From assembly GCF_900104725.1 (NCBI RefSeq), contig NZ_LT629758.1:3286001-3350000 (forward strand): 64,000 nucleotides of DNA, in the 5' to 3' direction. Every line of letters starts with the position of its first letter. Position 1 is the stretch's first letter. The DNA comes from Actinoplanes derwentensis (GTDB lineage: Bacteria > Actinomycetota > Actinomycetes > Mycobacteriales > Micromonosporaceae). The position numbers and the translations under genes were made by a program. The notes beneath the pieces were generated by a model. The model did not search any database, was not told the origin of the DNA, and was given only the letters and a program-made list of their open reading frames with translations. Positions 11,562-56,684 of this stretch are shown here, one piece after another.

Positions 11562-11593
11562 GCGGGTACGGGGTCAGGTGGCCCCGTACCCGC
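11562..11593. terminator. 12-bp perfect hairpin between convergent genes
   Basis: GCGGGTACGGGG (11562-11573) pairs with CCCCGTACCCGC (11582-11593) around an eight-base loop. It lies between the dehydrogenase stop (11554) and the end of the minus-strand lipoprotein gene (11604), so it can terminate both. Confidence 0.85.
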
Positions 11594-11603
11594 GCTCGCT
11601 CGA

Positions 11604-12272: not shown

Positions 12273-12331
12273 CGATGTTGTCCTCATCATCTTTTACTGC
12301 CCGGATTCCTTCCGAAAACACCTCGCCGGAC

Positions 12332-12694: not shown

Positions 12695-12717
12695 GTGTCC
12701 CCCGTCACAAACCCATT

Positions 12718-12741
12718 ACTATCCTCTAGGTACCTACTATC
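12718..12741. promoter_or_regulatory. Candidate HxlR operator
   Basis: In the divergent region between the HxlR gene and the NmrA-type gene, the perfect palindrome TAGGTACCTA (12727-12736) is flanked by two direct copies of ACTATC (12718-12723 and 12736-12741). Tandem or palindromic GTA-containing elements are usual for HxlR regulators. The site is inferred from position and symmetry. Confidence 0.5.
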
Positions 12742-12802
12742 TCCACGCTACTAGCGTTCCCGTCAGCCGCTCGAACGACGCGGCGGAACGGGAGACAACG
12801 AC

Positions 12803-29100: not shown

Positions 29101-32100
29101 CCGACCCGCCCGGGCTGACCTGCCGGGTCGCCAGGCCGGCGGGCGCTCCCGTGGTGCCGTCGGAGTGGACCGTGGTGGTGACCCGGCCGAGCGGATCGGT
29201 CACCGCCGTGGTGTTGCCGCGGGTGTCGTAGGTGTACGTCGTGCGGTAGGTGCCGTCGGTCCGGCCGTCCTGCACCGTCAGGATCTTGTCGTTGCGCGGG
29301 TCCGGGGCCGGGTTGGTGCTGGTCGCGTCCGGGAAGTAGGTGAACCGCGTGGTGGACCTGGTGGCGGTGTCGGTCTGGTCCGGCCAGGTGGTCTGCGACA
29401 GGACGTTGCCCCGGACGTCGTACGCCAGCTCGGTCTTGTTGCCGTTGGGGTCGACCTTGAGCGTCATCGCGCCGGTGGTGCCGTCGTACCCGAACTGGGT
29501 GAGGTTGCCGAGGGTGTCGGTGTCGGCGATCTGCTGCCCGGTGTACAGGTTGAACAGCTGGGTGCTGTTCTTCGCCGTCGGCCCGGTCACCGCGATCGAC
29601 TTCGCCGGCATGGCCACGCCGGTGGCACTGCGGTCGGCCGAGTTGAACTGGGCGAGGATCTCGGCGTCGGTGAGTCTGGCCTGGTAGGTGGCGATCTCGG
29701 CGACGCGGCCCTTCCACAGGTCGCAGTTCACCGCGTTGTGGAAGCAGTGACCGGCGACCAGGGTGGAACCGGCCCACAGCGTGTGTGTCAGAACGGCCGT
29801 CTTCTCCAGCACGCCGTTGACGTAGAGCCGCATCGTCTTGGTCGGGGCGTCGAACGTCGCGGCCAGATGCGTCCAGGTGTTGGCCACCGGTGTGCTGGTG
29901 GACGCGGTCCGGGGACACGTCGAGCCGGTGACGTCGGCGGAGCACATCACCGCCGCCCACTTGTTCGTGGCCTTGTCGTAACTGAGCATGAAGGCCGTCG
30001 ACTGGGCCGCGCCGGTGATCGCGACGGCGGCCCGGTTGACGGTCAGGTCGGCGGCGTTCAGCCAGGTCGAGACGCTGAACGACTGGGCGGTGCTGACCGA
30101 GGCGGTGTCGCCGGTGATCTCGCTGCCGGCCACCCCGCTGAACAACGGGGCGGTGGTGTCCTTGAACGGTCCGTCGGTACCGGGGGTGCCGCCGAGGGTG
30201 ACGCTGGAGTAGGTGGCGGTGTTGCCGTTGACCTCGTTGTACGGCTCGGTGGTGCCGGGCAGGTCGTTGAGACGCCAGTAGTCGACCGGATTGTCACCGA
30301 GCACCGCGGACGCGTACACCTGCGACGAGCCCTTGACCTGCGGGTCGGCGAGCGTCCAGGAACCGTTGTCGCCGTCGGTGACCTTGCGGACCCGGCCGGA
30401 GACCGGGTCGTAGGCGACCTTCGCGGTGACCGCGCCGCTGGGCCGGGTGATCTGTGACAGCAGCTTGCGTGAGGCGCGGGCACCGTAGAGTTCGGTGACC
30501 CGGTCGGCGGTCAGCGGCTGGTCGAAGACGGCGACGTCGCTGAGCGCGCCGCTGTAGTAGTCCGGGGAGCCGTTGTTCTTGTAGGCGACCGCGTTGTCCT
30601 GGGCGGTCCAGGTGCCACCGAGGTGACCGGCGCCGAGGTACTGGTAGCGCGGCTGGATGTCGGTGACCACCACCCCGGTCTGGGTGGCCTTGGCGACACC
30701 GTCGACGTAGAGGGTCTGCCGGTCACCGGCGGCCGAGAGCACCGCGTGGTGCCAGTTGCCGTCGTTGACCGCGGTCGCCGAGGCCAGCGTCGAATGGTTC
30801 TGGGTGGAGAAGGTCTGGACCGCGGTGTACGGGCGGCCACACGGCCAGATGGTCATCACCGTGCCGTTCACGGTGCCGTTGCCGTACGGGTTGACGCACA
30901 TGCCGGATTCCTGCGACACGATCCGGCCGTCGCCGGTCAGGCGCCACTTCTGGTTGGCCGCCGTCGCGCTGCAGTCCTGCACGTCGACGCCGGAACCGGC
31001 CTCGGTGCCCTCCTCCCGCATGCAGCGGGTGGCCAGCCCGTTCTGGTGCAACTGGCCGGCGGCGGTCAGCTTCCAGATCTGCTTACCGGCGCCGGTGCAG
31101 TCCTGCAGGATCACGTTGGAGCCGTTGCTGAGGCCGTCGTTCTCGGCGTCGAGACACCGGCCCGAGGCGCTGCCGAGGAAGGAGCCGAGGGTGGTTCCGG
31201 CGGCCGGCAGGGTCGGGAAACTGCCGTAGAGCTGGCCGTTGGTGCCGACATAGAGCACCGGCTGGTACGGGTTGGCGGTGCTCGCCGTCGTGATCGGATC
31301 CCAGCTCTGGCTGTAGAGCACATGATCGCCGGCGGCCGACGTCTTGAACCACATCGACACCGACTGGTAGCCGGCCTGCGACACGGTCTTGGCCGGCAGC
31401 GCGGTCCGCGAGGTGGTGCCGTTGTAGGTGGCGGCCGTCGCGGTCGAGCCGGGCAGCGCCCCGGAACCGGCGGTGCCGAGCGTGACGTTGGTGTGGGTGC
31501 CGTAGTCGGCCTTCATCCGCTCGGTCGCGGCGCTGGCGGCCTGCGCGACACCGGACGCCTCGCCGAGACGCCAGTACGAGTAGGCGTCCAGGTTCTCCAC
31601 CGTGGTCGGGTAGAGATTGCCGTCGGTGTAGGTGTACTGGGTGCAGGCGGTCGCCGAGGTCGGCGGGCACACCTTGGCCAGCTGGTCGCCGCTGTAGGTG
31701 TAGGACCAGGTGGCCGCGGTGGCCGCGTCACCGGCCACGGCCGGGTCGGTGACGACACTCGCGACGTGCGCACCGGACCAGGTCAGGAACAGGTTGCGCT
31801 TGCTCGCCGCCGACGTCACCTGGGTGACCTTGCCGCCGGTCCAGGTCAGGTTCAGCGGTCGGCCGTTGGTGTCGGTGACCGAGGTCAGCCCGTACACCCC
31901 GGTCGTGCCGGTCGCGCTGGTGAACAGGTAGCCGACACCGGACTTGTCGGTGAGCTGGTAACCGCCGGTGACCGCGGCGAACTTGGCGTACCGGCCGAGT
32001 CCCGCGGACCAGGTGCCGTCGGCGTTACGGCCGTAGGCGACCGTCTGCCCGGTCGGGTAGGTGACCTCGGCGACGGTCAGCGCGCCGGTGGCGTCCTTGC

Positions 32101-34234: not shown

Positions 34235-34457
34235 TGTTCCCCCAAGATCGAGCGACAAGATCCTGAGGAACATAGGTGAAGATCATCGATCTCCGATATA
34301 CCCGTTCTCCACACTGGATGCGCCGGCCGAGACACTGGACGACCGAGCCGAGCGCAACCTCACAGCATCTCCACAGCCCAAGGCCCTTGCAGGTCCAAGC
34401 TGGAGCCCGTCGATCCCGGCCAGAATATGACCGAGATCACACAGCGTTCCGGGTTTA

Positions 34458-43565: not shown

Positions 43566-44366
43566 CTATGGGCGGCGGTCGATCTTCAGGTCTCGTTCGA
43601 GGTCGGTTATTGCGGAGCGTAGGTCGTCCAGGCGTTGGCTGATCATGATGCGGTCGATTTCGTCGGGGATGCCGTCGTGGTCTTCGTCGGTGGCCATGTG
43701 GGTGGTCATCTCCAGGCGGCGGGCTTCCTCCATCGAGTTCACGATGACCGCTATCAGGATGTTGACCAGCACGTTCACGGTGATCAGTACGTAGCTGACG
43801 TAGTAGACGAGCGTCCACGGGGACAGGTCCAGGCCCTGGCCGATCAAGTCGGGCAGGGTTTCCAGGGAGAGTAGGACGAAGAGGGTCAGGACTGCCGCGC
43901 CCAGCGTGCCGTACTCCTCGGGGTAAGTGGTGCCGAAGATCAGCCAGCCGGCCATGCCGTAGACGTAGAGGGTGACCAGGGCCAGGGCCAGGAAACCGCC
44001 GACGCCGGGCAGGCTGCGCAGCAGGGCCGTGACGATGGTTCGCAAGCCGGGTGAGAAGCGCACCAGGCGGATCACCCGGGCGATTCGGATCACCCGCAGG
44101 GCGGCCGTGTCGCCGTGCAGGCCGGGCAGGAAGACGGCGGCGATGACGATGAAGTCGAAGACGTTCCAGCCGTGCCGGAAGAACTCTCGTGGGGTGCGGC
44201 CGTGCGCCAGGATCCGGACGGTGATCTCCGCTACGAAGAAGGCCCGGAAGACGTACTCGACACGGCGATCTCGAAGGCGCGGGATTCGGCGATCCGGTGG
44301 CAGCGGTGGGCTACCGGGCTCAGCCGGCCGACAGCAGTTGATCTTTGAGGGCTCGGCACCGTCACA
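43566..44366 (-). pseudogene. Voltage-gated-type ion channel with S1 region deleted and frame shifted
   Basis: Bases 44260 down to 43566 encode most of a single-domain six-helix cation channel: EYVFRAFFVAEITVRILAHG (S2), NVFDFIVIAAVFL (S3), RVIRIARVIRLVRFSPGLR (S4 with regular arginines), pore FVLLSLETLPDLIG, S6 VLVNILIAVIVNSMEEARR, then DEDHDGIPDEIDR and a coiled-coil end. Upstream, another frame from a GTG at about 44366 encodes the expected N-terminus (HRIAESRAFEIAV). The two join at about 44258-44261, with most of S1 and the S1-S2 loop missing and the frame changed. The ATG at 44093 could still give a 175-residue S4-pore fragment. Confidence 0.65.
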
Positions 44367-44382: not shown

Positions 44383-45204
44383 TCAGCGGAGTTGACCCGC
44401 TGCGAGGCCGGACTGGACCTGGCGGTGGAAGAGCAGGTAGCCGAACAGGACCGGGAGCATGGCGATGGTCATGCCGGCGAACAGGCCGCTGAAGTCGCCC
44501 CGGTAGCCCTCGCTCACGGCCAGGGCGGTCAGGCCTTGGGCCAGAACCCAACGTTGCTCGGCGTCCGAGCCCTGCATGAGGACGATCGGCAGGACGTACT
44601 GGTTCCACTGGAACAGGAAGTTGAAGATGCCGACGCTGATCAGGCCGGGGCGGGCCATCGGCAGCATGACGCGGAAGAACAGGCCGAAGTGGCCGCAACC
44701 GTCGACCATCGCGGCTTCGGCGACCGTGGTGGGCAGGGTGCGGAAGAACGCGGTCAGGAAGAAGACCGTGAACGGCAGCGAGTAGGCCGCATAGACCAGG
44801 GTCAGGCCGGGCAGGGTGCCGAGCAGGCCCAGATTGCGGACCACGAAGAACAGTGGCACCAGGGCCAGGAAGACCGGGAACATCATGCCGCCGACGAATG
44901 TGTAGTAGACGATCCGGTTGCCGCGGAACTTGTAGCGGGCCAGCACGTACGCGGCCATCGCCCCGAACAGCATGGTCAGGGTGAGGGCGCCGGTGACGAC
45001 GACGGCACTGTTGAGGAAGTAGCGGCCGATGTGCGCGGACGTCCAGGCTCGGGCCCAGTTCTCCCAGCGCAGGCGGGAGGGCAGGCTCCACGGATCGGTG
45101 AGGATCTCGTCGTCGCTCTTGAACGAGCTGAGCACCGCCCACACCAGCGGCAGCGTGGTGAGCAGGGCCCAGCCGATCAGGAAGACGTGCGGGAGGCGTT
45201 TCAC
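44383..45204 (-). CDS. Carbohydrate ABC transporter permease (MalG/NgcG type)
   Basis: A 273-residue CUT1-family inner subunit with six spans. The EAA loop that contacts the ATPase is EAAMVDGCGHFGLFFRVMLP. The GTG at 45204 overlaps the stop of the other permease (GTGA). It is last in the four-gene operon amidase-like hydrolase, binding protein, permease, permease. No ATPase gene is present; actinomycetes usually share one MsiK-type ATPase among several sugar importers. Context suggests an amino-sugar substrate such as MurNAc. Confidence 0.92.
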   Translation of the reverse strand: MKRLPHVFLIGWALLTTLPLVWAVLSSFKSDDEILTDPWSLPSRLRWENWARAWTSAHIGRYFLNSAVVVTGALTLTMLFGAMAAYVLARYKFRGNRIVYYTFVGGMMFPVFLALVPLFFVVRNLGLLGTLPGLTLVYAAYSLPFTVFFLTAFFRTLPTTVAEAAMVDGCGHFGLFFRVMLPMARPGLISVGIFNFLFQWNQYVLPIVLMQGSDAEQRWVLAQGLTALAVSEGYRGDFSGLFAGMTIAMLPVLFGYLLFHRQVQSGLAAGQLR

Positions 45205-46073
45205 CACTCGACCTGTTCGCGGCGGGTCACCTGGAGGAACATCGCCGCCACGGTGAGGGTCAGAAAGAACATGGCGACGCCGATCGCGGAGGCGTACCCG
45301 AACTGGCCGTCGCCGAAGGCGGTCTTGTAGAGGCGCAGGCCGACCACGTCGGAGGAGGAACTGGGGCCGCCGTCGGTGATGATCTGCACGATGGCGAACC
45401 CGTCGATGGCGATGATCGCGAGGTAGACCCAGGCGACCTGGATGGTGTCCCACAGCAGTGGCACGGTGATCCGGACCAGGGTGGTGAGCCGGTCGGCGCC
45501 GTCCAGAGCCGCGGCCTCGTACAACTCCCGGGGTATCGCCTGCATGGCAGCACTGAACAGGACGACGTAAAAACCGACGTTCATCCAGATCAGTACGACC
45601 AGAACGCACCAGAACGCGAACCGTGGATCACCCAGCCAGGCGACCGCCAGACCGTCCAGGCCCACGCCCCGGAGCAGACCGTTGATCATGCCGGTGTGCG
45701 GGGCGTACATCTCCTTCCACAGCACTCCGATGATCGCCACCGACAGGACCTGTGGAAAGAAGTAGACGACCCGGTAGAACCCGGCGCCGCGTACACCATG
45801 CACAGTGATCATCGACGCCAGGAACAGCCCGAACAGGATCGTCACCACCGGCAGGAACAGCAGCAGCAGTCCGTTGTGGCGCAGCGCGTTCCAGAAGTAA
45901 CCGTCCCCGAGCAGCCGCCGGAAGTTGTCCAGCCCGGCGAACTCGAACGTCGGCGACAGCCCGCTCCAGTTCGTACCGGCGATCTGGAACGCCTGCGCGT
46001 ACGGCGAAACGACGAACAGCCCGTACAGCAGCAGGGGCGGGACCAGGAACGTGAGGATGAACAGTCGCCGCAT
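45201..46073 (-). CDS. Carbohydrate ABC transporter permease (MalF/NgcF type)
   Basis: A 290-residue CUT1-family permease with six spans. The EAA loop is YEAAALDGADRLTTLVRITV. The ATG at 46073 overlaps the binding-protein stop by one base (TGATG), and its stop overlaps the next permease start. It forms the membrane channel with that subunit. The substrate is inferred from the binding protein and neighbouring cell-wall sugar genes. Confidence 0.93.
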   Translation of the reverse strand: MRRLFILTFLVPPLLLYGLFVVSPYAQAFQIAGTNWSGLSPTFEFAGLDNFRRLLGDGYFWNALRHNGLLLLFLPVVTILFGLFLASMITVHGVRGAGFYRVVYFFPQVLSVAIIGVLWKEMYAPHTGMINGLLRGVGLDGLAVAWLGDPRFAFWCVLVVLIWMNVGFYVVLFSAAMQAIPRELYEAAALDGADRLTTLVRITVPLLWDTIQVAWVYLAIIAIDGFAIVQIITDGGPSSSSDVVGLRLYKTAFGDGQFGYASAIGVAMFFLTLTVAAMFLQVTRREQVEW

Positions 46074-47476
46074 CAGACCCGCTTGTACTTCTTGATCGCC
46101 GGATCCTTCGCGAACTCGTCGGCGGATTTCTGCACCTTGTCGCACCATTGCGTAGCGTTGAGGCGTTTGGCGTACAGCTCGGCACTGGCCCCGTCGACCC
46201 GCTCACGTTCGAGCTTGCGGTAGTACGACGAGTACAGCCAGGTGAACGCGCCACCGCCGGAGGCGTCGATGAGTTCGGTGACCGAGGTGAGGCCGGGCCC
46301 CAGCGAGAGGCCGGAGGCAGAACCCTGCACACACGTCAGGCTGCTGACTCGGCGGGTGAAGTCGGAAGCTGCGGCCCGAGACAGCATGACCCGCAGATAT
46401 TCCAGTCCACCGCGCGTGTTCTTGCCTCGGGACGGGACGATGAACGGCTCACTCCCGGTGCCGCGGAACGTCTCGTACGGCAGCTTGTCCGATTTTGTCA
46501 GTGCCGGTGTGGGGGCGACTGCCATCCGGAAGTCGGCCGGGGTGACCGCCTTCTGCTCGTTCTCCAGCCAGGAGCCGCACGAAAGGAACGCGGCGTTGCC
46601 CCGGCACCACTCGGTCTGTGACTGCACGTGGTCCATGCCTTCGGCGCCCGGCTGCAGGAAACCGTCGACGGCGAGCTGGTAGTACGCCTCGGCGGCGGCC
46701 ACCACGGCCGGATGCTTCCACGCGTTCGGTTCCAGATTGTCGATCGCCAGGATGACTTCGTGGCCGCCGAGTTTCGCCGCCGACGCGAGGATCGGCCAGC
46801 TCATGTAGCGGGAGTGTTTGCCGGGATAGGTCCACGGCGCGATCCCGGCCGCCTTGATCGTCCGGCACAGGGCGATCATGTCGTCCCAGGTCTTCGGATA
46901 CTCCCAGCCACGGGACTCGAAAAGTTTGCGCGAATACCAGATGCCGTAGGCCGAATAGGCGTAATTCAAGGACAGGAACTTGCCGTCGTACGAGCCCACG
47001 TCCACGATTCCGGGCAGCAATGTGTCCCGGACCTTCTTCGCCGGGTCGTCGAGACTTGGCGCGTCGAGGAGTTCATCCAGGTCGGTGAGGGCGCCCTGGG
47101 AGACGAGACCGTTGAAGTCGATCTGGCTGCCGCCGGAGTTGTTCACCACGTCCGGCGGATCCCCGGCGACGAACCGGGGCTGCAGCGTCTCCGCGATCTG
47201 CTGAGTGGCCGAGTGTTTGATCGTCGCTTTCGGATAGCGCTGCCGGTACATCGCTTGATGCGCCTTGGCGTAGTCCTCACCGAACCCGCCGTTGAAGATG
47301 ACCACTTCGAGGGCGGCGTCCTGTTTGACCCCGAGCGGATTGTTCGCACTGGTCTCGCCCTTGGCGCCCTCGCCGGCCGGACCGCCGCCGCCCATCGCGC
47401 AGCCGGCGAGACCACTTGCCGCCGCAGCACCCGCGGCTCCCTGGAGGAGGCCGCGCCGGCTGATCGCAGATGTCAT
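46073..47476 (-). CDS. Sugar ABC transporter binding protein, NgcE-like
   Basis: A 467-residue solute-binding lipoprotein with a twin-arginine-type signal (SRRGLLQGAAGAAAASGLAG) ending in lipobox LAGC. Mature segments such as LEVVIFNGGFGEDYAKAHQA, RFVAGDPPDVVNNSGGSQID, LSLNYAYSAYGIWYSRKLFE and LSCGSWLENEQKAVTPADFR match NgcE, the N-acetylglucosamine/diacetylchitobiose-binding protein of Streptomyces. It starts 15 bases after the hydrolase gene with GGAG upstream. Because the locus encodes MurNAc-releasing enzymes and MurQ, I infer that it binds MurNAc or a muramyl disaccharide rather than chitobiose. Confidence 0.9.
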   Translation of the reverse strand: MTSAISRRGLLQGAAGAAAASGLAGCAMGGGGPAGEGAKGETSANNPLGVKQDAALEVVIFNGGFGEDYAKAHQAMYRQRYPKATIKHSATQQIAETLQPRFVAGDPPDVVNNSGGSQIDFNGLVSQGALTDLDELLDAPSLDDPAKKVRDTLLPGIVDVGSYDGKFLSLNYAYSAYGIWYSRKLFESRGWEYPKTWDDMIALCRTIKAAGIAPWTYPGKHSRYMSWPILASAAKLGGHEVILAIDNLEPNAWKHPAVVAAAEAYYQLAVDGFLQPGAEGMDHVQSQTEWCRGNAAFLSCGSWLENEQKAVTPADFRMAVAPTPALTKSDKLPYETFRGTGSEPFIVPSRGKNTRGGLEYLRVMLSRAAASDFTRRVSSLTCVQGSASGLSLGPGLTSVTELIDASGGGAFTWLYSSYYRKLERERVDGASAELYAKRLNATQWCDKVQKSADEFAKDPAIKKYKRV

Positions 47477-47491
47477 CTTCGACTCCGTCCG

Positions 47492-49165
47492 TCATAACTG
47501 TTGAGGGGTCCACCCGTCGGCGGCGTCGACATGACCGATTCCGGCGACGAGCACGCCGCGACCCTGCGAGGCGGCGTCGGTGCGGTAGGTGAAACGAAGA
47601 GCCGACCCCGGCGGTACGGCGGAAGTCACCGTCCACCAGTGCCGGCCGCCGAAGCCGCTGACCACTCCGTCGCTGGTGGCACGCTCGTAACCGGAGCGCA
47701 GCGTGAGTGCCACAGGCTTCCAAGCGGCCTCGGCGGCCGGGGCCGAACCAGCGGAGACCGAACCGGCGAAGGACTCGACGGTCAGCGTGTCGAGGCCGGG
47801 CTGGGTGTCGTACCAGAGCTGGAACGGACCCTGACTCGCGCTCGCGGTGAGTGTCATGACCGCGCCGTCGCGAAGTTCGGTCCGCCAGACCTCTCCCCCG
47901 CCGGGCGGCGCCCCGATCGGACGGGCCGCGGCGAACGCCCTGGCCAGCGCGCGCCGGGCCACCGTGTTGGTGCCCCACGCGCGGTCCGGGTGGACCCGGT
48001 TGCTGAGCAGGACGAGGAACGACTGGTCGAGCGGGTCGATGACGACCGAGGTGCCGGTGAATCCGGTGTGCCCGAACGTGACCGGCGAGGTCATGCCGTC
48101 CATGTACGAGTGTTTGGCCAGTTCGAACCCGAGTCCGCGGCTGCTGTCCGGATACTGCGGCAGCAGGTCGGCGTTGTAGTTCACCAGCGCGGCACGGACC
48201 GTCCGTGCCGACAGGATCCGGGTTCCCCGGTAGATGCCGCCGTTGAGCAGGGTCTGGCACAGGATCGCCAGGTCGTCGACGGTGGAGAAGATTCCGGCGT
48301 GCCCGGCGACACCACCGAGCGACCAGGCGTTCTCGTCGTGCACCTCACCACGGACCAGGCCCCGGCCCGCGTACGGCTGGAACTCGGTCGCCGCGGTCCG
48401 GTCGACGATCGTGGGGCGATAGCCGGTGTCGCGCATCCGCAGCGGCTCGGTGATTCCGGCGCGAACGGCGTCGGCGAGTGGTTTCCCGGTGACCCGTTCG
48501 GCAAGCACTCCGAGTGCGATCAGTCCGATGTCGGAGTAGGTGTACTGCTTGCCGGGGGTGGTGCCGGCGTCAGCCGGGGTTGCCTGAGCTACGGCTAGCC
48601 GTAGCTCAGGTGTGGAATCGGTGGAGTAGAACGGGCGAAAGGCGGGCAAACCTGATGTGTGCGTGAGCAGGTGCCGGGCAGTCACTCCGGCAGCCGCGAA
48701 TCCCGGCAGATACCTGGTGACCGGGGCGTCCAGATCAACCCGGCCCGCCTCGACCTGCTGAAGCACCACGATCGTGGTGAACAGCTTCGAAATTGAAGCC
48801 AGATCCCACAGCGTGTCCACCCGAGCCGGAACACGCCGCTCCACCGGCAGTTCCTCAGTGGGACTGGCATACCGAACCGCGTCCCCGACGGCGAACCGCG
48901 ACACCACGATCCCGTGCCGAGCGGCCAGCACCGCAGCCCCCGCATACGCCGGATGCCCCGGATGGTCCGCTGTCGGCGTCAGGTAGGAGGCCGCGATGAC
49001 CGGAAGTGACTCGATCGGGCCGGGCAGTAGACCCGCTTGACGGGGATTTCCAGGGCGCAGCACGTCACTCCGAAAGGTGATTTCGTCCGGGCTGACGGCT
49101 CGCACGGGTGAACCGATCAGGAGACCGGTAACCACGCCGAACAGCACGAACCGAAGCTTGATCAT
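47492..49165 (-). CDS. Secreted beta-lactamase-family hydrolase, YbbE/AmiE-like
   Basis: A 557-residue exported serine hydrolase. A signal peptide (LRFVLFGVVTGLLIGSPVRA) is followed by a class C beta-lactamase fold: SxxK in WDLASISKLFTTIVV, YxN-equivalent YSDIGLIALGVLAERVTG, and FGHTGFTGTSVVIDP. A C-terminal beta-sandwich extension of about 130 residues follows. In Bacillus subtilis the homologous position in the mur/ybb cluster is AmiE (YbbE), an N-acetylmuramyl-L-alanine amidase; that role fits here but is inferred from context. The ATG at 49165 has GAGGGG five bases upstream. First gene of the importer operon. Confidence 0.82.
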   Translation of the reverse strand: MIKLRFVLFGVVTGLLIGSPVRAVSPDEITFRSDVLRPGNPRQAGLLPGPIESLPVIAASYLTPTADHPGHPAYAGAAVLAARHGIVVSRFAVGDAVRYASPTEELPVERRVPARVDTLWDLASISKLFTTIVVLQQVEAGRVDLDAPVTRYLPGFAAAGVTARHLLTHTSGLPAFRPFYSTDSTPELRLAVAQATPADAGTTPGKQYTYSDIGLIALGVLAERVTGKPLADAVRAGITEPLRMRDTGYRPTIVDRTAATEFQPYAGRGLVRGEVHDENAWSLGGVAGHAGIFSTVDDLAILCQTLLNGGIYRGTRILSARTVRAALVNYNADLLPQYPDSSRGLGFELAKHSYMDGMTSPVTFGHTGFTGTSVVIDPLDQSFLVLLSNRVHPDRAWGTNTVARRALARAFAAARPIGAPPGGGEVWRTELRDGAVMTLTASASQGPFQLWYDTQPGLDTLTVESFAGSVSAGSAPAAEAAWKPVALTLRSGYERATSDGVVSGFGGRHWWTVTSAVPPGSALRFTYRTDAASQGRGVLVAGIGHVDAADGWTPQQL

Positions 49166-49206
49166 CAACGCCCCTCAATACGCCGACTTGTCGAGGATGA
49201 ATGTTT

Positions 49207-49240
49207 CCTTCACGACTCGCAAGAGGAGTGAAGGTTATTG
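49207..49240. promoter_or_regulatory. Inverted repeat with candidate MurR motif
   Basis: In the 109-base divergent region between the hydrolase and nagZ genes, CCTTCAC (49207-49213) and GTGAAGG (49228-49234) form a perfect inverted repeat with a 14-base spacer. The right arm extends to TGAAGGTTATTG (49229-49240), which matches 11 of 12 bases of a site in front of the kinase/murR genes. This is a candidate operator for the local RpiR/MurR protein. Confidence 0.5.
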
Positions 49241-49274
49241 CCATCCGTCGACCACACGGCTACCTTCCGACATC

Positions 49275-50957
49275 ATGCGAACGCGTACGGTCGCTTTCCT
49301 TGCTGTCGCCGCTTTGGGGATCGGGTTGCCCACCCCAGCGGTGGCGAAGCCGCACCCGATCAACGCCCTGATCGCCCGGATGACACTGCCGGAGAAGGTC
49401 GGGCAGCTCTTCACCACCTATGTGCACGGCACCGCCGCGACCACGCCTTCGAGCGACAACAAGCGGCTGTACGGGGTGGACACGCCCGCCGAGGTGGTCG
49501 CCAAGTACCACCTCGGCGGAGTCGTCTACTTCTCCTGGACGAACAGCCTGCAGAACCCGCGCCAGATCACCACGCTCAGCAACGGACTCCAGGCGGCGTC
49601 GAAGAAGGTGCCGCTGATGATCTCCACCGATCAGGAGCACGGCGTGGTCACCCGGATGCCGGCGCCCGCCACCCGGTTCCCCGGCGCGATGGCCCTCGGC
49701 GCCGGTCGTGACCCGGCCGGCGCCTACCGCACCGGGCAGGTCACCGGCGTCGAACTGCGCGCGGTCGGCATCCGCCAGGCCTGGGCCCCGGTCGCCGACG
49801 TCAACGTGAACCCGGCCAACCCGGTCATCGGCGTCCGCTCGTTCAGCAGCGACCCCACCTTGACCGGCACCCTGGCCGCGAACCAGATCCGCGGTCTCCA
49901 ACAGGGCGCCGGTATTTCAGCGAGCGCCAAACACTTCCCCGGGCACGGCGACACCGCCACCGACAGTCACACCGGCCTGCCCGTCATCAACCACACCCGG
50001 GCGCAGTGGCAGCGGATCGACGCGCCACCGTTCCGGGCCGCGATCGCTGCCGGCGTCGACACGATCATGAGCGCGCACATCGTGGTCCCGGCTCTCGATC
50101 CGACCGGCGATCCGGCCACTCTGTCGAACCCGATCATCACCGGGCTGCTGCGCGGGGAATTCGGTTATCGCGGTGTGATCGTCACCGATTCTCTGGAGAT
50201 GCAGGGCGTCCGGGAGAAGTACGGTGACGCGCGGGTGCCGGTGCTCGCCCTGAAAGCCGGCATCGACGTACTGCTGATGCCACCGAACCTGGACGTGGCC
50301 TACAGAGCGGTGCTGAAGGCGGTGGCCGACGGGGAACTCACCGAGTCCCGCATCGACGAGTCGGTGCGCCGGATCCTCACCCTCAAACAGAAGCGTGGCC
50401 TGCTGCGATGGACACCGGCCGACCCGGCCGCGGCACAACGGATCGTCGGCTCGGCGGCCCACCGGCGTACCGCGCAGTCGGTCACCGACCGCACGGTGAC
50501 CGTGATCCGCAACGACGCCCGGCTGCTGCCACTGGCGACGAAGGGCAAGAGGATCCTGGTCACCGGATGGACCTCCAGTACGTACGACACGATCGGCGTG
50601 CTGGCCCGGGAACTCACCGCGACTGCTCTGCCCACGACCGTTCCGGATCAGGCGGCAGCCGCGGCCCGTGAACACGACCTGACCGTGGTGCTGAGCAACA
50701 ACGGTCAGCAGCAGGCGCTGCTCGCGGCACTACTGAAGACCGGGAAGCCGATCGTGGTGGTGGCGGTGCGTAACCCCTACGACCTGACCGCGCTACCCGG
50801 CGTCACCACCTATCTGGCCACCTACAGCTACACGGATGTCTCGATGCGCGCTCTCGCCAAGGTTCTGACCGGTGTCACGCCACCCCGCGGGAGACTGCCC
50901 GTGGCGATACCGGGGCTCTACCCGTACGGCCATGGCCTGTCCTGGGGTGTGAAATGA
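49275..50957 (+). CDS. nagZ: Secreted beta-N-acetylhexosaminidase (GH3)
   Basis: A 560-residue exported glycosidase that removes N-acetylglucosamine from GlcNAc-MurNAc fragments. Signal peptide MRTRTVAFLAVAALGIGLPT ends near AVAKP. The GH3 barrel has PLMISTDQEHGVVTRMP, the NagZ-specific general acid loop SASAKHFPGHGDTATDSHTG and the nucleophile Asp in VIVTDSLEMQGV. A C-terminal alpha/beta domain (about 400-560) is present, as in Bacillus NagZ (YbbD), unlike the short cytoplasmic proteobacterial form. The stop overlaps the namZ start by ATGA. Divergent from the importer operon. Confidence 0.93.
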   Translation: MRTRTVAFLAVAALGIGLPTPAVAKPHPINALIARMTLPEKVGQLFTTYVHGTAATTPSSDNKRLYGVDTPAEVVAKYHLGGVVYFSWTNSLQNPRQITTLSNGLQAASKKVPLMISTDQEHGVVTRMPAPATRFPGAMALGAGRDPAGAYRTGQVTGVELRAVGIRQAWAPVADVNVNPANPVIGVRSFSSDPTLTGTLAANQIRGLQQGAGISASAKHFPGHGDTATDSHTGLPVINHTRAQWQRIDAPPFRAAIAAGVDTIMSAHIVVPALDPTGDPATLSNPIITGLLRGEFGYRGVIVTDSLEMQGVREKYGDARVPVLALKAGIDVLLMPPNLDVAYRAVLKAVADGELTESRIDESVRRILTLKQKRGLLRWTPADPAAAQRIVGSAAHRRTAQSVTDRTVTVIRNDARLLPLATKGKRILVTGWTSSTYDTIGVLARELTATALPTTVPDQAAAAAREHDLTVVLSNNGQQQALLAALLKTGKPIVVVAVRNPYDLTALPGVTTYLATYSYTDVSMRALAKVLTGVTPPRGRLPVAIPGLYPYGHGLSWGVK

Positions 50958-52186
50958 ACCGGCGGGGCCTGCTCGCCGGCGGGGCGGGAGTCCTGCTGCC
51001 GGTGCCGGTCAGCCTGGGCACGCCGCTGCGGACCGGCCTGGAGAAGCTCGCGGACGACGGATGGGCCGCCGTCCGCGGGGAACGAATCGGTGTCGTCTCC
51101 AACCCGACCGGCGTGGACCGTGACTACCGGCATCTCGTCGACCGGATGCACGCCGACAAGGTCACCATCGGCGGCGTCTTCGGCCCCGAGCACGGTTTCC
51201 GCGGGTCGGCGCAGGCGGGCGCCGCCGAGGGCACGAGCACCGACGCCCGCACCGGCGTGACCGTCTACGACGCCTATCTCGCCACCGCGGCGAAGTGGGA
51301 GCAGATGTTCACCGCGGCCGGGGTGCGCGTCATCGTCTTCGACATCCAGGACGTGGGCGCGCGGTTCTACACCTACATCTACACGCTGTACGACTCGATG
51401 GCCGCCGCCGCCCGCCTCGGCCTGCGTTACGTCGTGCTGGACCGGCCGAATCCGGCGGGCGGGAGCGCGTACGGGCCGATGATGACCGGCGGGTTCACCT
51501 CCGGGGTCGGCCGGCTCGAGATCGTGCAGCAGCACGGCATGACCGTCGGTGAACTGGCCCGGTTCTACAACGGCGAGTTCCTGGGCGGCAAGGTCGAGCT
51601 GGAGGTGATCGGCTGTCAGGGCTGGCACGGGCGGATGTTCGGCCGGGACCTGGACCTGCCGTGGGTGCTGCCCAGCCCCAACATGCCCACCCCGGACACC
51701 GCCCTGGTCTACCCCGGTACCGGCATGTTCGAAGGCGTGGCCGCGCTCTCCGAGGGCCGCGGCACCACCCGCCCGTTCGAACTGATCGGCGGCCCCGGCT
51801 TCGACTACCGCTGGTGTGACCGGGTGGCCGCGCTCGACCTGCCCGGAGTGCGGTTCCGGGAGGCCTACTTCACGCCCACGTTCAACAAGTTCGCTGATCA
51901 GTTGTGTGCCGGCATCGAGGTCAAAATCGTCGACCCGCGGCGGTACGACCCGATCCGCACCGCCGTGGCCATGCTCGTCGAGGCGCGTAAGGAGAAGGCG
52001 TTCGGCTGGCGTGCCGACAACGGCACCCGGTACTTCATCGATCTGCTCACCGGCTCGTCCCGCCTGCGCACGATGATCGACGCCCGTGCCTCGGCCCGCG
52101 AGGTGGTCGAGGCGTGGTCCGGTGAACTGGCCGCTTTCGACCGGCGGCGACGGCCGTACCTGCTCTACTCCCGGCCCGGCTCCTGA
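50954..52186 (+). CDS. namZ: Exo-beta-N-acetylmuramidase NamZ (DUF1343, GH171)
   Basis: A 410-residue exported enzyme that cleaves terminal MurNAc from non-reducing ends of peptidoglycan fragments. An N-terminal signal (MNRRGLLAGGAGVLLPVPVS) is Tat-like. Family motifs in order: GVVSNPTGVDRDYRHLVDRM, GVFGPEHGFRG, VFDIQDVGARFYTYIYTLYD, VVLDRPNPAGG, LPSPNMPTPDTALVYPGTGM and EGRGTTRPFELIGGPG. Translationally coupled to nagZ, as ybbC/ybbD are neighbours in Bacillus subtilis. The two enzymes together strip disaccharide chains into free GlcNAc and MurNAc. It converges on the kinase gene with a 22-base overlap. Confidence 0.93.
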   Translation: MNRRGLLAGGAGVLLPVPVSLGTPLRTGLEKLADDGWAAVRGERIGVVSNPTGVDRDYRHLVDRMHADKVTIGGVFGPEHGFRGSAQAGAAEGTSTDARTGVTVYDAYLATAAKWEQMFTAAGVRVIVFDIQDVGARFYTYIYTLYDSMAAAARLGLRYVVLDRPNPAGGSAYGPMMTGGFTSGVGRLEIVQQHGMTVGELARFYNGEFLGGKVELEVIGCQGWHGRMFGRDLDLPWVLPSPNMPTPDTALVYPGTGMFEGVAALSEGRGTTRPFELIGGPGFDYRWCDRVAALDLPGVRFREAYFTPTFNKFADQLCAGIEVKIVDPRRYDPIRTAVAMLVEARKEKAFGWRADNGTRYFIDLLTGSSRLRTMIDARASAREVVEAWSGELAAFDRRRRPYLLYSRPGS

Positions 52187-53142
52187 TGGGTGAGCTTGGC
52201 ATGGATCACCGGCGCCACGGGGGCGCCGGTGATCCGGGAGATCGCCAGAGCCGCGGCGCCGGCGGCACCGTCGAGCGCGCTCCGGGGCTGCACTCCGGTG
52301 CGGGCCAGCAGACCGGCGCGCACCTGCCGCGCGATCGGGCCGGGCGTGAGCAGCACCGATCCTGCGAGCACCACGACCGCGGCGGATGGCGGGCCGACCC
52401 GGTCGAAGGTGTGCAGGAGGCGACCGGTGGCCGCGGCGCAGATTCGCGCGGCCACCGCGTCGTCCTGCTCGGCGGCGGCACTCACCGCGGGCGCGAAGCC
52501 GCCCAGCAGCGCGGGCGGCACCGCGAACGTGGCGGCGACCAGCCCCTGGGCCGCCTCCTCGGGATCAGCCGGAGGCACCCGGAAATGAGTGCGCGCGGCC
52601 TCCACCAGCACCGTCGGCTCACCGCGGCCGTCCAGAGCGGCCAGCACCGCGCGCAACGCCCGCACCCCGATCCACACCGCGGAACCCTCGTCGCCGAGCA
52701 GCCACCCGTAGCCGTCGCACCGGCGATCCAGCACCCCACCGGCGAACCGGGCGGCCAGCGCGCCGGTGCCGGCCAGCAGCAGCACCCCGTCGCGGTCCGG
52801 GGTGCCGGCCGCGAACGCCACCTCCAGATCGGTCACCGTGCCCATCTCACCGGTCAGTCCGGCCGCCCGCCAGGCCCGCCCCGCCTCCGCCCGGAACGCG
52901 TCCCGGCCGAGGCCCGACGATCCCGCGGCACCGAGGACCCCGGCTGTTATCGCGGCCCGGTCGACCGACCGCAGCGCCCCGGTCAGGGCCGTCTCGATGC
53001 TCGCGCTCACTTCGCCGCCACTGCTGTTACGGTTCGCTCCGCCGCCCGCGCCCCGGCCGACCACCGTGCCGTCGACCGTCGCGACCACACATCGCGTGGT
53101 CGTGGCGCCCGCGTCGACGCCGATCACCATCCCCGTACCCAT
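52165..53142 (-). CDS. BadF/NagK-type amino-sugar kinase (MurK-like)
   Basis: A 325-residue ASKHA-fold kinase. Phosphate-1 loop VIGVDAGATTTRCVVATVDG, GGGANRNSSGG, phosphate-2/adenosine regions LLLAGTGALAARF and GYGWLLGDEGSAVWIGVRAL match N-acetylglucosamine kinases of the BadF/BadG family; Clostridium MurK, which phosphorylates MurNAc and GlcNAc, belongs here. An ABC importer delivers unphosphorylated sugar, and MurQ needs MurNAc 6-phosphate, so this kinase fills the gap that the PTS fills in Bacillus. The ATG at 53142 is chosen (53130 possible). Divergent from murR. Confidence 0.82.
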   Translation of the reverse strand: MGTGMVIGVDAGATTTRCVVATVDGTVVGRGAGGGANRNSSGGEVSASIETALTGALRSVDRAAITAGVLGAAGSSGLGRDAFRAEAGRAWRAAGLTGEMGTVTDLEVAFAAGTPDRDGVLLLAGTGALAARFAGGVLDRRCDGYGWLLGDEGSAVWIGVRALRAVLAALDGRGEPTVLVEAARTHFRVPPADPEEAAQGLVAATFAVPPALLGGFAPAVSAAAEQDDAVAARICAAATGRLLHTFDRVGPPSAAVVVLAGSVLLTPGPIARQVRAGLLARTGVQPRSALDGAAGAAALAISRITGAPVAPVIHAKLTHQEPGRE

Positions 53143-53145
53143 GGA

Positions 53146-53157
53146 TGAAGGATATTG
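53146..53157. promoter_or_regulatory. Second copy of candidate MurR motif
   Basis: TGAAGGATATTG lies in the 48-base gap between the divergent kinase and RpiR genes and differs by one base from TGAAGGTTATTG at 49229-49240. It overlaps a TTGACG promoter-like hexamer (53155-53160) for the RpiR gene. A regulator bound here could block both directions. Confidence 0.45.
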
Positions 53158-53190
53158 ACGATCTGTGCCGAGCAAAGGAAAGATTTCTCC

Positions 53191-54084
53191 ATGACAGAGC
53201 GGAAGCGCGGCACAGCCGAAACGGTGGTCCGGGCCCGGGGCCTGCTGCCGTCGCTGTCCCCGGCCGAGCAGCGGGTCGCGCGGGTGATCATCGAGGAGGC
53301 GGCCACCGCGTCCCGGCTCACCATCACCGACCTCGCCGAGCGGGCCGGTTCCAGCGAGACCACGGTGATCCGGTTCTGCCGGGCGATGGGCTTCGCCGGC
53401 TACTCCGAGCTGCGGCTGACCCTGGCCGCCGAGTCCGGCCGCCGCGACGACACCACCGAAGCGATCGGCAGCGACATCAGCCCCGGTGACGACCTCGCCG
53501 AGGTGGTCAAGAAGATCGCCTTCGCGGACGCCCGCGCCGTCGAGGAGACCGCCTCCCAGATCGACATCGCCGTGCTCGGACAGGTCGTCGAGCTGTTGGC
53601 CGAGGCGCGCCGGGTGGACATCTACGGCGTCGGAGCCAGCGCCTTCGTCGCCACCGACTTCCAGCACAAACTGCACCGCATCGGCCGGGTCGCGTTCGCC
53701 TGGAGCGACACCCACGTGGCGATGAGCAGCGCCGCCCTGCTCGACGAGCGCGACGTCGCCTTCGGCATCTCGCACACCGGCACCACCAGCGACACCATCG
53801 ACGCGTTCACCGAGGCCAAACGGCACGGGGCTCGCACGGTGGCACTCACCAACTTCCCCCGGTCGCCGATCACCACGCTCGCCGACCTGGTGCTCACCAC
53901 CGCGGCCCGGGAGACGACGTACCGGTCCGGGGCCATGTCCAGCCGCTTGGCCCAGCTCACCGTCATCGACTGCGTGTTCGTCGGCGTCGCGCAGCGCACG
54001 TACCAGCAGACCCGGACCGCACTCGACGCCACCTACGCGGCCGTGCGCGACCGGCGCATCAGCACTGACCGGAGGCGCACATGA
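53191..54084 (+). CDS. murR: RpiR-family regulator, MurR-type
   Basis: A 297-residue regulator. The N-terminal RpiR helix-turn-helix has LSPAEQRVARVIIEEAATAS, LTITDLAERAGSSETTVIRF and CRAMGFAGYSELRL. The C-terminal SIS domain (about 115-260) has RRVDIYGVGASAFVATDFQH, AFGISHTGTTSDTIDAFTEA and ALTNFPRSP, which bind phosphosugars. In E. coli MurR binds MurNAc 6-phosphate. The stop overlaps murQ by ATGA, giving the murR-murQ operon. It is the obvious controller of the locus. The ATG at 53191 is chosen by AGGAAAG upstream. Confidence 0.88.
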   Translation: MTERKRGTAETVVRARGLLPSLSPAEQRVARVIIEEAATASRLTITDLAERAGSSETTVIRFCRAMGFAGYSELRLTLAAESGRRDDTTEAIGSDISPGDDLAEVVKKIAFADARAVEETASQIDIAVLGQVVELLAEARRVDIYGVGASAFVATDFQHKLHRIGRVAFAWSDTHVAMSSAALLDERDVAFGISHTGTTSDTIDAFTEAKRHGARTVALTNFPRSPITTLADLVLTTAARETTYRSGAMSSRLAQLTVIDCVFVGVAQRTYQQTRTALDATYAAVRDRRISTDRRRT

Positions 54085-55049
54085 CAACCAGCCCGTCGCA
54101 ACTATCCCTGGCAGCGCCGCCGACTTCGCCGCAGCTCTCCGCGCCGCCTTCGCCGCTGTCCCGGACCGAGGAGCGTAATCCGCGCAGTGCCGGGATCGAC
54201 CGGATGTCCACCCTCGAACTGCTGCATCTGATCAACAGCGAGGACCGGCACGTCCCGGAAGCCGTCGCGCAGGTGCTGCCGCAGCTCGCCGCCGCCGTTG
54301 AACTCGCGGTGACGGCCCTGTCCGGCGGCAACCGGGTGCACTACGTCGGGGCCGGCACGTCCGGCCGGATCGCGGTCCTCGACGCGGCCGAGCTGATCCC
54401 CACGTTCGGCCTGGAACCGGACCGGGTGATCGCGCACATCGCCGGTGGCCCGCCCGCGCTGACCCGGCCGTCCGAAGCCGCCGAGGACGACGAGACCGCC
54501 GGTTCGGCGGTGGTCACCGCAGTCGAGGCGGGCGACGTCGTCGTCGGCGTCACCGCCAGCGGCCGTACGCCGTACGTCCACGCCGCCCTGACCACCGCCC
54601 GCACGCTGGGTGCCCACACGGTGCTGATCTCGGCGAACCCGGCGTCCCCGATCTCGGCGGCCGCGGACGTCCACATCGCCCCCGACACCGGCCCCGAGGT
54701 GCTGACCGGATCCACCCGGATGAAGGCCGGCACCGCCCAGAAGCTGATCCTGAACGCGTTCTCCACGGCGACGATGGTCCGGCTGGGCCGCACCTACTCC
54801 AACCTGATGACCGACATGCTCGCCACCAACGCCAAACTGAAGGACCGCCGCCTGCGCATCCTGGCCGAAGCCACCGGCGCGGACCTGACCGAATGCGGTC
54901 ACGCTCTGCGATCCGCCGACGGCAACGCGAAGGTCGCCCTGCTCACGCTGCTGGCCGGGAGCAGCCCCGACACCGCCGCACGAGCGCTGGCCGTCACCGA
55001 GGGCCACGTGACCCGGGCCCTGCGCCTGCTGGCGGTGAACGGAACCTAG
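54081..55049 (+). CDS. murQ: N-acetylmuramic acid 6-phosphate etherase
   Basis: A 322-residue cytoplasmic lyase that splits MurNAc 6-phosphate into GlcNAc 6-phosphate and D-lactate. Family motifs: TEERNPRSAGIDRMSTLELL, VHYVGAGTSGRIAVLDAAEL with the catalytic Glu, EDDETAG, VVVGVTASGRTPYVHAALTT, VLTGSTRMKAGTAQKLILNA and FSTATMVRLGRTYSNLMTDM. The first 28 residues are a Pro/Ser-rich extension absent from E. coli MurQ. GGAGG lies five bases before the ATG. Last gene of the salvage locus. Confidence 0.95.
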   Translation: MTTSPSQLSLAAPPTSPQLSAPPSPLSRTEERNPRSAGIDRMSTLELLHLINSEDRHVPEAVAQVLPQLAAAVELAVTALSGGNRVHYVGAGTSGRIAVLDAAELIPTFGLEPDRVIAHIAGGPPALTRPSEAAEDDETAGSAVVTAVEAGDVVVGVTASGRTPYVHAALTTARTLGAHTVLISANPASPISAAADVHIAPDTGPEVLTGSTRMKAGTAQKLILNAFSTATMVRLGRTYSNLMTDMLATNAKLKDRRLRILAEATGADLTECGHALRSADGNAKVALLTLLAGSSPDTAARALAVTEGHVTRALRLLAVNGT

Positions 55050-55146: not shown

Positions 55147-55554
55147 ATGGCCAAGTACCTGCTGCTCAAGCACTACCGCGGTGGCCCCGAGCCGCTGTTC
55201 GACCTGCCGATCGACAAGTGGGCGCCGGAGGAGATCACCGCCCACGTCCAGTACATGAACGACTTCGCGGCCCGGCTCCAGGAGAACGGCGAGTTCGTCG
55301 ACGCGCAGGCGCTCGCCCCGGGTGGCACGTTCGTCCGCTACGACGGTGAGGGCCAGCCGCCGGTCACCGACGGCCCGTTCGCCGAGACCAAGGACCTGAT
55401 CGCCGGCTGGATGGTGATCGACGTGGACACCTACGAGCGGGCCGTGGAACTCGCCGCCGAACTGTCCGCGGCTCCCGGCGCCGGTGGCGAGCCGCTGCGC
55501 GAGTGGCTCGAACTGCGGCCGTTCCTGACCGAGCCGCCGACCGTCACCGAGTGA
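55147..55554 (+). CDS. DGPF/YCII-related protein, partner of the ECF42 sigma factor
   Basis: A 135-residue soluble protein of the YCII/DGPF superfamily. The hallmark DGPF appears in PPVTDGPFAETKDLIAGWMV; the N-terminus is KYLLLKHYRGGPEPLFDLP. In ECF42-type systems a DGPF gene sits next to the sigma gene and may modulate it or act in the same stress response. Its stop overlaps the sigma gene start by GTGA, so both are made together. Confidence 0.88.
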   Translation: MAKYLLLKHYRGGPEPLFDLPIDKWAPEEITAHVQYMNDFAARLQENGEFVDAQALAPGGTFVRYDGEGQPPVTDGPFAETKDLIAGWMVIDVDTYERAVELAAELSAAPGAGGEPLREWLELRPFLTEPPTVTE

Positions 55555-56684
55555 ACGACGCGCTGCTCCGGGGCCTGACCCCGGCGGTGCTGGGCATTCT
55601 CGTCCGCCGCGGAGCCGACTTCGCGGCGGCCGAGGACGCCGTCCAGGACGCCATGGTCGAAGCGTTGCGCACCGATGCCCGGCCGGCCGACCCGAAGGGG
55701 TGGCTGATCACGGTGGCGTGGCGGCGCTACCTCGACGCCGTCCGGGCCGACACGGCCCGCCGGCGGCGTGAGGAGTCGCCGTCGACGCCACCCGGCCCAG
55801 TACCGTCCACCGACGACACCCTGCAGCTCTACTTCCTGTGCGCGCACCCGTCGCTGCCGCCCGCGTCGGCGGTCGCGCTCACGCTGCGGGCCGTCGGCGG
55901 GCTGACCACACGGCAGATCGCGGCGGCCTACCTGGTGCCCGAGACGACCATGGCCCAGCGGATCAGCCGGGCGAAGAAGACGATCGCGGGGGTACGTCTG
56001 GACAAGGCGGCCGACGTGTCCACCGTCCTGCGGGTGCTGTACCTGGTGTTCAACGAGGGCTACAGCGGCGACGTCGACCTCGCCACCGAGGCGATCCGGC
56101 TGACCCGTCAACTCGCCGCCGTGATCGACCATCCCGAGGTGTCCGGGCTGCTCGCACTGATGCTGTTGCATCATGCGCGGCGCTCCGCCCGTACCGCCGC
56201 TGGGGTAGGTCTCGTGTCCCTCGCCGACCAGGACCGCAACCGGTGGGACACCGCCCTGATCGCCGAAGGCGTCACGATCCTGCAGACCGCCCTCGCCCGG
56301 GACCGGCTCGGCCAGTTCCAGGCCCAGGCCGCGGTGGCGGCCCTGCACGCCGACGCGCCGTCCACGGCGGAGACCGACTGGGTGCAGATCGTCGAGTGGT
56401 ACGACGAGTTGGCCCGCCTCACCGACAGTCCGGTGGTCCGGTTGAACCGGGCCGTCGCGGTGGGTGAGGCCGACGGCCCGCACGCCGGACTCGCCGCCCT
56501 GGCCGGGCTGGACCCGGCCCTGCCCCGCTATCAGGCGGTCGCCGCTCACCTGCACGAACGCACCGGCGACCCGGTCACGGCGGCCCGGTTGTACGCGGTC
56601 GCCGCGAGCCAGGCCACCAACACCGCCGAACGCGACCATCTGCACCGGCAGGCCGCCCGGTTGAACGCTCTCCGGGGGCCGTGA
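55551..56684 (+). CDS. ECF42-type RNA polymerase sigma factor
   Basis: A 377-residue sigma factor: region 2 (GADFAAAEDAVQDAMVEALR, GWLITVAWRRYLDAVRAD), region 4 (VGGLTTRQIAAAYLVPETTM, AQRISRAKKTI) and the long C-terminal TPR-like extension typical of ECF42 (LRVLYLVFNEGYSGDVDLAT, LMLLHHARRSARTA, LNRAVAVGEADGPHAGLAAL). No anti-sigma gene is present, consistent with control through the extension. The GTG at 55551 overlaps the DGPF gene. Confidence 0.92.
   Translation: MNDALLRGLTPAVLGILVRRGADFAAAEDAVQDAMVEALRTDARPADPKGWLITVAWRRYLDAVRADTARRRREESPSTPPGPVPSTDDTLQLYFLCAHPSLPPASAVALTLRAVGGLTTRQIAAAYLVPETTMAQRISRAKKTIAGVRLDKAADVSTVLRVLYLVFNEGYSGDVDLATEAIRLTRQLAAVIDHPEVSGLLALMLLHHARRSARTAAGVGLVSLADQDRNRWDTALIAEGVTILQTALARDRLGQFQAQAAVAALHADAPSTAETDWVQIVEWYDELARLTDSPVVRLNRAVAVGEADGPHAGLAALAGLDPALPRYQAVAAHLHERTGDPVTAARLYAVAASQATNTAERDHLHRQAARLNALRGP

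Follow-up and report, generated by a model that had tools for sequence, protein, structure and literature searches.

A predicted N-acetylmuramic acid salvage cluster with an ABC importer and a BadF-type kinase in Actinoplanes derwentensis

Gene content of the cluster and its genomic context

The window, i.e., the whole stretch of 64,000 nucleotides analyzed here, comprises bases 3286001 to 3350000 of the single 10.65-Mb contig of the soil bacterium Actinoplanes derwentensis (NZ_LT629758.1). Between window positions 44383 and 55049 it carries nine genes, encoding an AmiE/PBP4B-like hydrolase, NagZ, NamZ, an NgcE-type sugar-binding protein (SBP), two permeases of an ATP-binding cassette (ABC) importer, a BadF-type kinase, MurR, and MurQ (Table 1), which together probably serve the salvage of N-acetylmuramic acid (MurNAc). 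All genes named in a preliminary description of this DNA were recovered by profile matches. Its division of the locus into two divergent blocks had to be revised, as the kinase gene lies on the minus strand and the strand changes three times, not once: permease 2, permease 1, the SBP, and the AmiE-like hydrolase (minus) are followed by NagZ and NamZ (plus), the kinase (minus), and MurR and MurQ (plus). Because of the short gaps and overlaps between the genes, including 4 bases shared by nagZ and namZ, four transcripts are suggested, namely, amiE-SBP-permease-permease, nagZ-namZ, the kinase gene alone, and murR-murQ. The kinase gene overlaps the end of namZ in a convergent arrangement and is divergent from murR-murQ. 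Two plus-strand open reading frames (ORFs) at 52186..53148 and 52386..53489 were considered as the kinase and rejected as spurious, since they match no Pfam family.

The SBP exceeds the curated cut-off of the NgcE model; binding of N-acetylglucosamine (GlcNAc) and diacetylchitobiose would be predicted for it from the family name. The kinase possesses the DxGxT motif and the catalytic Asp of the BadF family, with D10, G12, and D105 invariant in 12 aligned rows. The AmiE-like protein, whose gene heads the presumed importer operon, has the β-lactamase fold and is linked to nagZ and namZ, and from family and linkage it is a putative MurNAc-L-alanine amidase; against the PBP4B model it scores 157 bits, under the cut-off of 385. 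Reading of the translations by eye revealed a twin-arginine plus lipobox-like leader (RR..LAGC) in the SBP, export leaders in the AmiE-like hydrolase and NagZ, and an RR-type leader in NamZ, which we take to be the counterpart of YbbC. NagZ also contains the sequence KHFPGHGDT..DSH, presumably a NagZ motif.

Table 1. Features of the cluster, in window coordinates
Feature	Position	Strand	Basis and remarks
ABC permease 2, NgcG-like	44383..45204	-	PF00528 58 bits; ORF 44383..45609, with a likely internal start near 45204 (translation read by eye)
ABC permease 1, NgcF-like	45201..46073	-	PF00528 51 bits; ORF 45201..46148, with a likely internal start near 46073 (translation read by eye)
NgcE-type SBP	46073..47476	-	TIGR03851 608 bits, cut-off 399.65
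AmiE/YbbE/PBP4B-like hydrolase, β-lactamase fold	47492..49168	-	PF00144 205 bits
Predicted MurR operator, amiE-nagZ gap	49195..49210	-	AAGGAAACATTCATCC; best motif match in 64 kb
NagZ, glycoside hydrolase family 3 (GH3), two domains	49275..50957	+	PF00933 305 bits, PF01915 55 bits; ORF 49077..50957, true start likely near 49275 (by eye)
NamZ exo-β-N-acetylmuramidase	50954..52186	+	NamZ_N 229 bits, NamZ_C 165 bits, both over cut-off
BadF/NagK-type sugar kinase, predicted MurNAc kinase	52165..53142	-	PF01869 88.8 bits
MurR-like RpiR regulator	53155..54084	+	HTH_6 PF01418 62 bits, SIS PF01380 94 bits; start probably 53191
Predicted MurR operator at murR start	53175..53190	+	AAGGAAAGATTTCTCC; third-best match of same motif
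MurQ, MurNAc 6-phosphate etherase	54081..55049	+	TIGR00274 326.9 bits, over equivalog cut-off 302

The proposal of the preliminary description that a kinase stands in for a phosphotransferase system (PTS) agrees with the remainder of the genome. A genome-wide PF02378 search returned a single PTS enzyme IIC (EIIC), a mannitol-type protein (TIGR00851, 486 bits; cut-off 468), and no EIIC of the MurP or NagE type. No ATPase gene was seen within the cluster. Three ATPases with an OB_MalK domain, the best of them UgpC/MalK-like, are encoded outside it, compared with 19 SBPs in the genome that match the NgcE model at an E value of 0.001, a ratio that fits a shared ATPase. NagA occurs once over the cut-off, MurQ has one match at an E value of 1e-60, and the genome carries a second NgcE-type locus.

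Linkage of the importer and the kinase to murQ

The SBP and MurQ were each searched in the same 67 genomes of the genus, so that this comparison did not start from NamZ. Matches of at least 67% identity were taken as SBPs of the window's clade and NgcE-like matches of at most 51% identity as paralogues. A clade SBP is present in 23 genomes and lies within 8.7 kb of MurQ in every one of them, whereas none of the 102 paralogues is located within 10 kb of MurQ; the nearest on the same contig is 708 kb away, although many of the genomes are drafts whose contig ends can hide a link. MurQ was found in 28 genomes, comprising all 23 with a clade SBP and 5 of the other 44 (Fisher P = 1.9e-13, shared ancestry ignored). 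The linkage of importer and murQ in relatives, on which the preliminary description had made its reading depend, thus held for every clade SBP found in the genus.

This pattern bears on a more conventional explanation, according to which the importer is an ordinary NgcEFG system for GlcNAc and chitobiose, the kinase phosphorylates GlcNAc supplied by NagZ, and MurNAc enters through some other, unlinked carrier. The shared end product of the two routes, GlcNAc 6-phosphate, would then account for the position of importer and kinase next to murQ. TIGR03851 indeed names the SBP as NgcE, and characterized NgcE proteins bind GlcNAc and (GlcNAc)2, as stated in excerpts of PMC6167110. The different behavior of clade SBPs and paralogues with respect to murQ and the existence of a second NgcE-type locus in the same genome nevertheless argue against this explanation, as do the pocket residue and the kinase grouping presented below, and we consider it unlikely.

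NamZ is present in 33 of the 67 genomes. Besides the window, 32 NamZ loci of the genus were inspected, 20 of which also contain the SBP, both permeases, AmiE, MurR, and MurQ. The kinase occupies the same place in 18 of these full loci, lies at the far side of the permeases in L134 (locus and genome labels are ours), and is not seen in L147; NagZ was unmatched in three (L128, L130, and L147). Conversely, two of the 23 genomes with a clade SBP (G307 and G319) are devoid of NamZ. Since the same gene set recurs in relatives, which is what the preliminary description had proposed to look for in other actinomycetes, the cluster is not a chance assembly.

Beyond the genus, species genomes were scanned with a kinase alignment, 80 of 150 relatives were kept, and neighboring genes were matched by tblastn. 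MurQ accompanies the kinase in 66 of the 80 loci, in all 66 on the opposite strand; a 44-bit MurQ match in L204 was taken as a cross-hit. An NgcE-type SBP is present in 22 of these 66 loci, from the Actinoplanes group, Virgisporangium, Nucisporomicrobium, Dactylosporangium, and Planosporangium. Members of the SBP clade also exist in Plantactinospora. Another five (L181, L186, L190, L198, and L221) have a different importer of the CUT1 type, located on the murQ strand beyond murQ. In five Dactylosporangium loci, the order kinase-SBP-permease-permease is seen opposite murR-murQ, and the examined stretch gave no match to NamZ, NagZ, or AmiE. In Nucisporomicrobium (L173), NagZ is located between kinase and SBP, with NamZ and AmiE unmatched, and in the Nocardiopsidaceae loci and L188 other genes separate the kinase from murR.

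The Dactylosporangium arrangement is relevant for the idea that the importer takes up a larger muropeptide (GlcNAc-MurNAc or a MurNAc-peptide), the hydrolases acting on other material. SBP relatives with solved structures do bind disaccharides and longer sugars. An importer, kinase, and MurQ without hydrolases, however, suit a free sugar, and NagZ, NamZ, and the AmiE-like protein all seem by eye to carry export leaders, which would place cleavage outside the cell. Uptake of a muropeptide therefore appears quite improbable to us.

Some loci of this survey deserve mention in their own right. The alternative SBPs are 22 to 26% identical to the SBP of the window; against a cut-off of 400, the NgcE model gives 73 bits for that of L181 and 77 bits for that of L198. 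The alternative SBPs follow murR-murQ in Murinocardiopsis, Actinoallomurus, Marinitenerispora, and another actinomycete, and might belong to a second MurNAc importer. In Thermobifida fusca (L187), a gene of the major facilitator superfamily (positions 11453 to 13252) downstream of the kinase and opposite murR-murQ might encode a MurNAc carrier; this locus is one of those matching neither importer. In Actinomadura macra (L216), likewise with no importer match, a penicillin-binding transglycosylase/transpeptidase and a GH3 protein are encoded beside a kinase gene opposite murR-murQ.

NamZ was also considered as a marker of the pathway. Within the order, 77 of 298 genomes encode it, and MurQ is present in 51 of the 78 NamZ loci fetched there, mostly of family f15 with the order nagZ-namZ-amiE-murR-murQ. 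NamZ thus often occurs with murR-murQ yet without the importer of the window; that importer does not follow NamZ, which was rejected as a marker. In the class, 94 NgcE matches were obtained; the regions of 20 from the top of the score list were fetched, and later three more in two genomes. None of the first 20, which belong to other families of the class, contains MurQ (two are on contigs of 6.7 and 4.2 kb), while an RpiR match was seen in five and a weak match to the window kinase in two or three. One locus, L154 (genome G070, from another genus of the family), in which an NgcEFG-RpiR-kinase set adjoins MurQ-MurR-NagZ, was considered as a second independent linkage and counted as adjacency only, because two further genomes of the family, G015 and G028, have a similar set but no MurQ beside it. 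In L265, a short SIS_2 protein (12268 to 13017) is encoded beside a kinase gene, flanked by the genes of an RpiR protein and of a second NgcE-like SBP.

Binding pocket, kinase, and predicted operator

A tree was calculated from 53 SBPs, leaving out L158 to L169, whose species were already represented. In it, the 31 murQ-linked SBPs from the window's family cluster together (93/99); 21 unlinked rows, among them the second NgcE of the window genome (L018), stand apart, and L154 is placed elsewhere. The two sets also differ at position 223, for which L154 and five distant SBPs (L252, L256, L257, L258, and L262) were left out of the count: all 31 murQ-linked SBPs have Arg, whereas the 16 unlinked NgcE proteins have Tyr (15) or Phe (1). 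Arg223 aligns with Trp213 of the chitobiose binder NagB1, a residue that interacts with the first GlcNAc according to excerpts of PMC8233162. Replacement of the pocket aromatic by Arg would be expected to favor an acidic sugar.

Among solved structures, the best match of the kinase is PDB 8zo3, named MurNAc/GlcNAc kinase (72 bits, with only query residues 6 to 180 aligning), which we take to be MurK of Clostridium acetobutylicum. At the place of residues 133 to 135 of TfMurK, the window kinase has Asp-Gly-Tyr, the Gly being common to human NagK and 8zo3. For TfMurK, these positions are given in excerpts of PMC10465942 as unbulky residues that leave room for the lactyl group.

In a tree of the window kinase and 46 loci hand-chosen among those with a kinase match, the window kinase belongs to a group of 37 rows (98/99) that spans Micromonosporaceae, Thermomonosporaceae, Nocardiopsidaceae, Streptosporangiaceae, and one member of the Streptomycetaceae. 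Within this group, 14 kinases have MurQ and NgcE nearby, 16 have MurQ without NgcE, and for 7 no MurQ was counted (some on cut contigs). Kinases with NgcE but without MurQ (L257, L258, L262, L264, and L265) fall outside. By this grouping, the kinase follows murQ rather than NgcE, and this speaks against the GlcNAc kinase assumed in the conventional explanation.

A further possibility is dual specificity, with an importer that carries both MurNAc and GlcNAc and a kinase that phosphorylates either sugar, as the Clostridium acetobutylicum enzyme is described to do. The name of the kinase's best solved relative points in this direction, the joint action of NagZ and NamZ would set both sugars free, and Streptomyces NgcE binds the monosaccharide GlcNAc (excerpts of PMC6167110). 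On the other side, nothing direct was found; the Arg223 switch would be expected to favor the acidic sugar. We regard dual specificity as a tentative option; it is compatible with MurNAc salvage, and our confidence in each alternative overlaps with that in MurNAc salvage.

Candidate MurR operators were sought with a motif around GAAA(A/C)TTTC, trained on 43 of 46 murR-upstream regions outside the Actinoplanes group (L174 upward), 19 of them distinct. When both strands of the 64 kb were scanned, the amiE-nagZ gap ranked first (position 49195, score 18.1) and the murR start third (53173, 12.0); the second match (12.06) is at 17287, outside the cluster. Out of 2,000 column-permuted motifs, 25 ranked the amiE-nagZ gap first and 5 placed both gaps in the top three. 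The consensus AAGGAAANNTTYHTCC matched genome-wide, with at most one mismatch, only the two cluster sites, and a backward control gave one match; as the consensus was written from these two sites and is partly circular, the only test proper is that with the motif trained on other genera. For most Actinoplanes loci, the extracted murR region ends before the site, and the low per-locus kinMurR scores were not used. Promoter-like TTGAC elements were noted by eye only. The two sites predict one small regulon covering the hydrolases, the importer, the kinase side, and murQ.

Directly adjoining the cluster, positions 43569 to 44093 (minus strand) contain a short ion-channel-like ORF (Ion_trans, 175 amino acids), and downstream of murQ a sigma-70-family factor with DUF6596 is encoded at 55503 to 56684 (plus strand). 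Farther away, a minus-strand ORF of 3,719 amino acids (23114 to 34273) combines RHS repeats, three laminin-G-like stretches, a ricin-B lectin, a pretoxin HINT domain, and a C-terminal nonspecific endonuclease; its product resembles the polymorphic RHS-type toxins of bacteria, and the ORF probably explains the strong AT skew at 24 to 32 kb.

Proposed pathway and comparison with known systems

Overall, the best reading of the cluster is MurNAc salvage in the Actinoplanes group without a PTS, through an ABC importer, a kinase, and MurQ, which we judge probable from gene content and comparison. Judging from protein families and leaders, the exported AmiE-like hydrolase, NagZ, and NamZ would cleave peptidoglycan fragments outside the membrane, releasing MurNAc and GlcNAc. 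The NgcE-type lipoprotein and the two permeases, served by a shared ATPase encoded elsewhere in the genome, would import MurNAc, and perhaps GlcNAc, unphosphorylated, and the BadF kinase would convert MurNAc to MurNAc 6-phosphate. MurQ cleaves MurNAc 6-phosphate to GlcNAc 6-phosphate and lactate, and the pathway would continue with NagA, encoded elsewhere in the genome. MurR is predicted to repress both divergent promoter regions through one common operator. Comparative genomics thus lends support to the MurNAc assignment of the preliminary description, by the SBP-murQ linkage, the lack of a MurP-type EIIC match, the kinase grouping, and the predicted common operator.

Several observations weigh against this assignment. 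Fourteen of the 80 kinase loci beyond the genus have no MurQ (some are on cut contigs), and 39 of the 66 with MurQ show no match to either importer in the stretch examined, other carriers not having been sought. Among the 51 NamZ-MurQ loci of the order, only L049 has an SBP match (23%), and the window-type kinase was found in none of the 78 NamZ loci. In G028, from another genus of the family, an SBP that belongs to the clade by 62% identity and Arg223 has no MurQ match in the 17 kb examined, and related kinases (38 to 40%) lie beside NgcE without MurQ in both G028 and G015, where a kinase-RpiR-NgcEFG set lends weight to the GlcNAc/chitobiose explanation. The L134 kinase belongs to the other kinase group. 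The TfMurK positions (excerpts of PMC10465942) do not separate MurNAc from GlcNAc kinases and were dropped as discriminators. Finally, the training sites of the operator motif were selected with a regular expression that had been composed once all regions, Actinoplanes included, had been viewed.

No report of an ABC importer for MurNAc was found in the open literature searched; subscription papers were mostly outside that search. As an evenly balanced conjecture, the cluster would encode the first one described, derived from a Micromonosporaceae NgcE lineage in which the pocket aromatic became an Arg holding the lactyl carboxylate, and actinobacteria lacking MurP would combine any CUT1 importer at hand with a BadF MurNAc kinase and murR-murQ; the distant importer of five loci would be a second, possibly independent recruitment. 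The component families are all known, and what is new, as far as the open literature was searched, is the way they are combined, the linkage specific to this clade, and the specificity switch proposed here. The locus offers a concrete candidate importer and kinase for MurNAc, a predicted regulon, and a one-residue specificity hypothesis (Arg223), and could correct the database name "N-acetylglucosamine/diacetylchitobiose" for the whole SBP clade. A preprint of 2026 on mycobacteria still refers to an unknown transporter (excerpts of PMC13041923); if our reading is true, the importer is a candidate for the MurNAc transporter not yet identified in such bacteria.

Like the Bacillus subtilis cluster murQ-murR-murP-amiE-nagZ-ybbC (excerpts of PMC5061867), the Actinoplanes locus combines AmiE, NagZ, NamZ, a MurR-type regulator, and MurQ; unlike it, an NgcE-type ABC importer and a BadF kinase replace the PTS protein MurP. 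A MurNAc transporter with a separate MurNAc kinase is found in MurT-MurK of Tannerella forsythia (excerpts of PMC5790795 and PMC10465942), and the same division of labor is predicted here from the genes alone, although with a different carrier, a binding-protein ABC system, as well as exported hydrolases and MurQ. A MurNAc kinase is also known from Clostridium, as cited in the excerpts of PMC10465942; the Actinoplanes kinase, like 8zo3, is of the BadF type, and its MurNAc specificity is predicted. With NgcEFG-MsiK of Streptomyces, the cluster shares the SBP and permease family and an ATPase encoded elsewhere (excerpts of PMC6167110); unlike that system, which binds GlcNAc and (GlcNAc)2, the Actinoplanes clade has Arg in place of the pocket aromatic and is linked to murQ. 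Streptomyces coelicolor, with SCO4307 (murQ) and SCO4308 (murR), recycles MurNAc without a MurP ortholog (excerpts of PMC5061867). Actinoplanes derwentensis is likewise an actinobacterium without a MurP match, and to such a murQ-murR pair, for which the excerpts name neither importer nor kinase, its locus adds a candidate for each.

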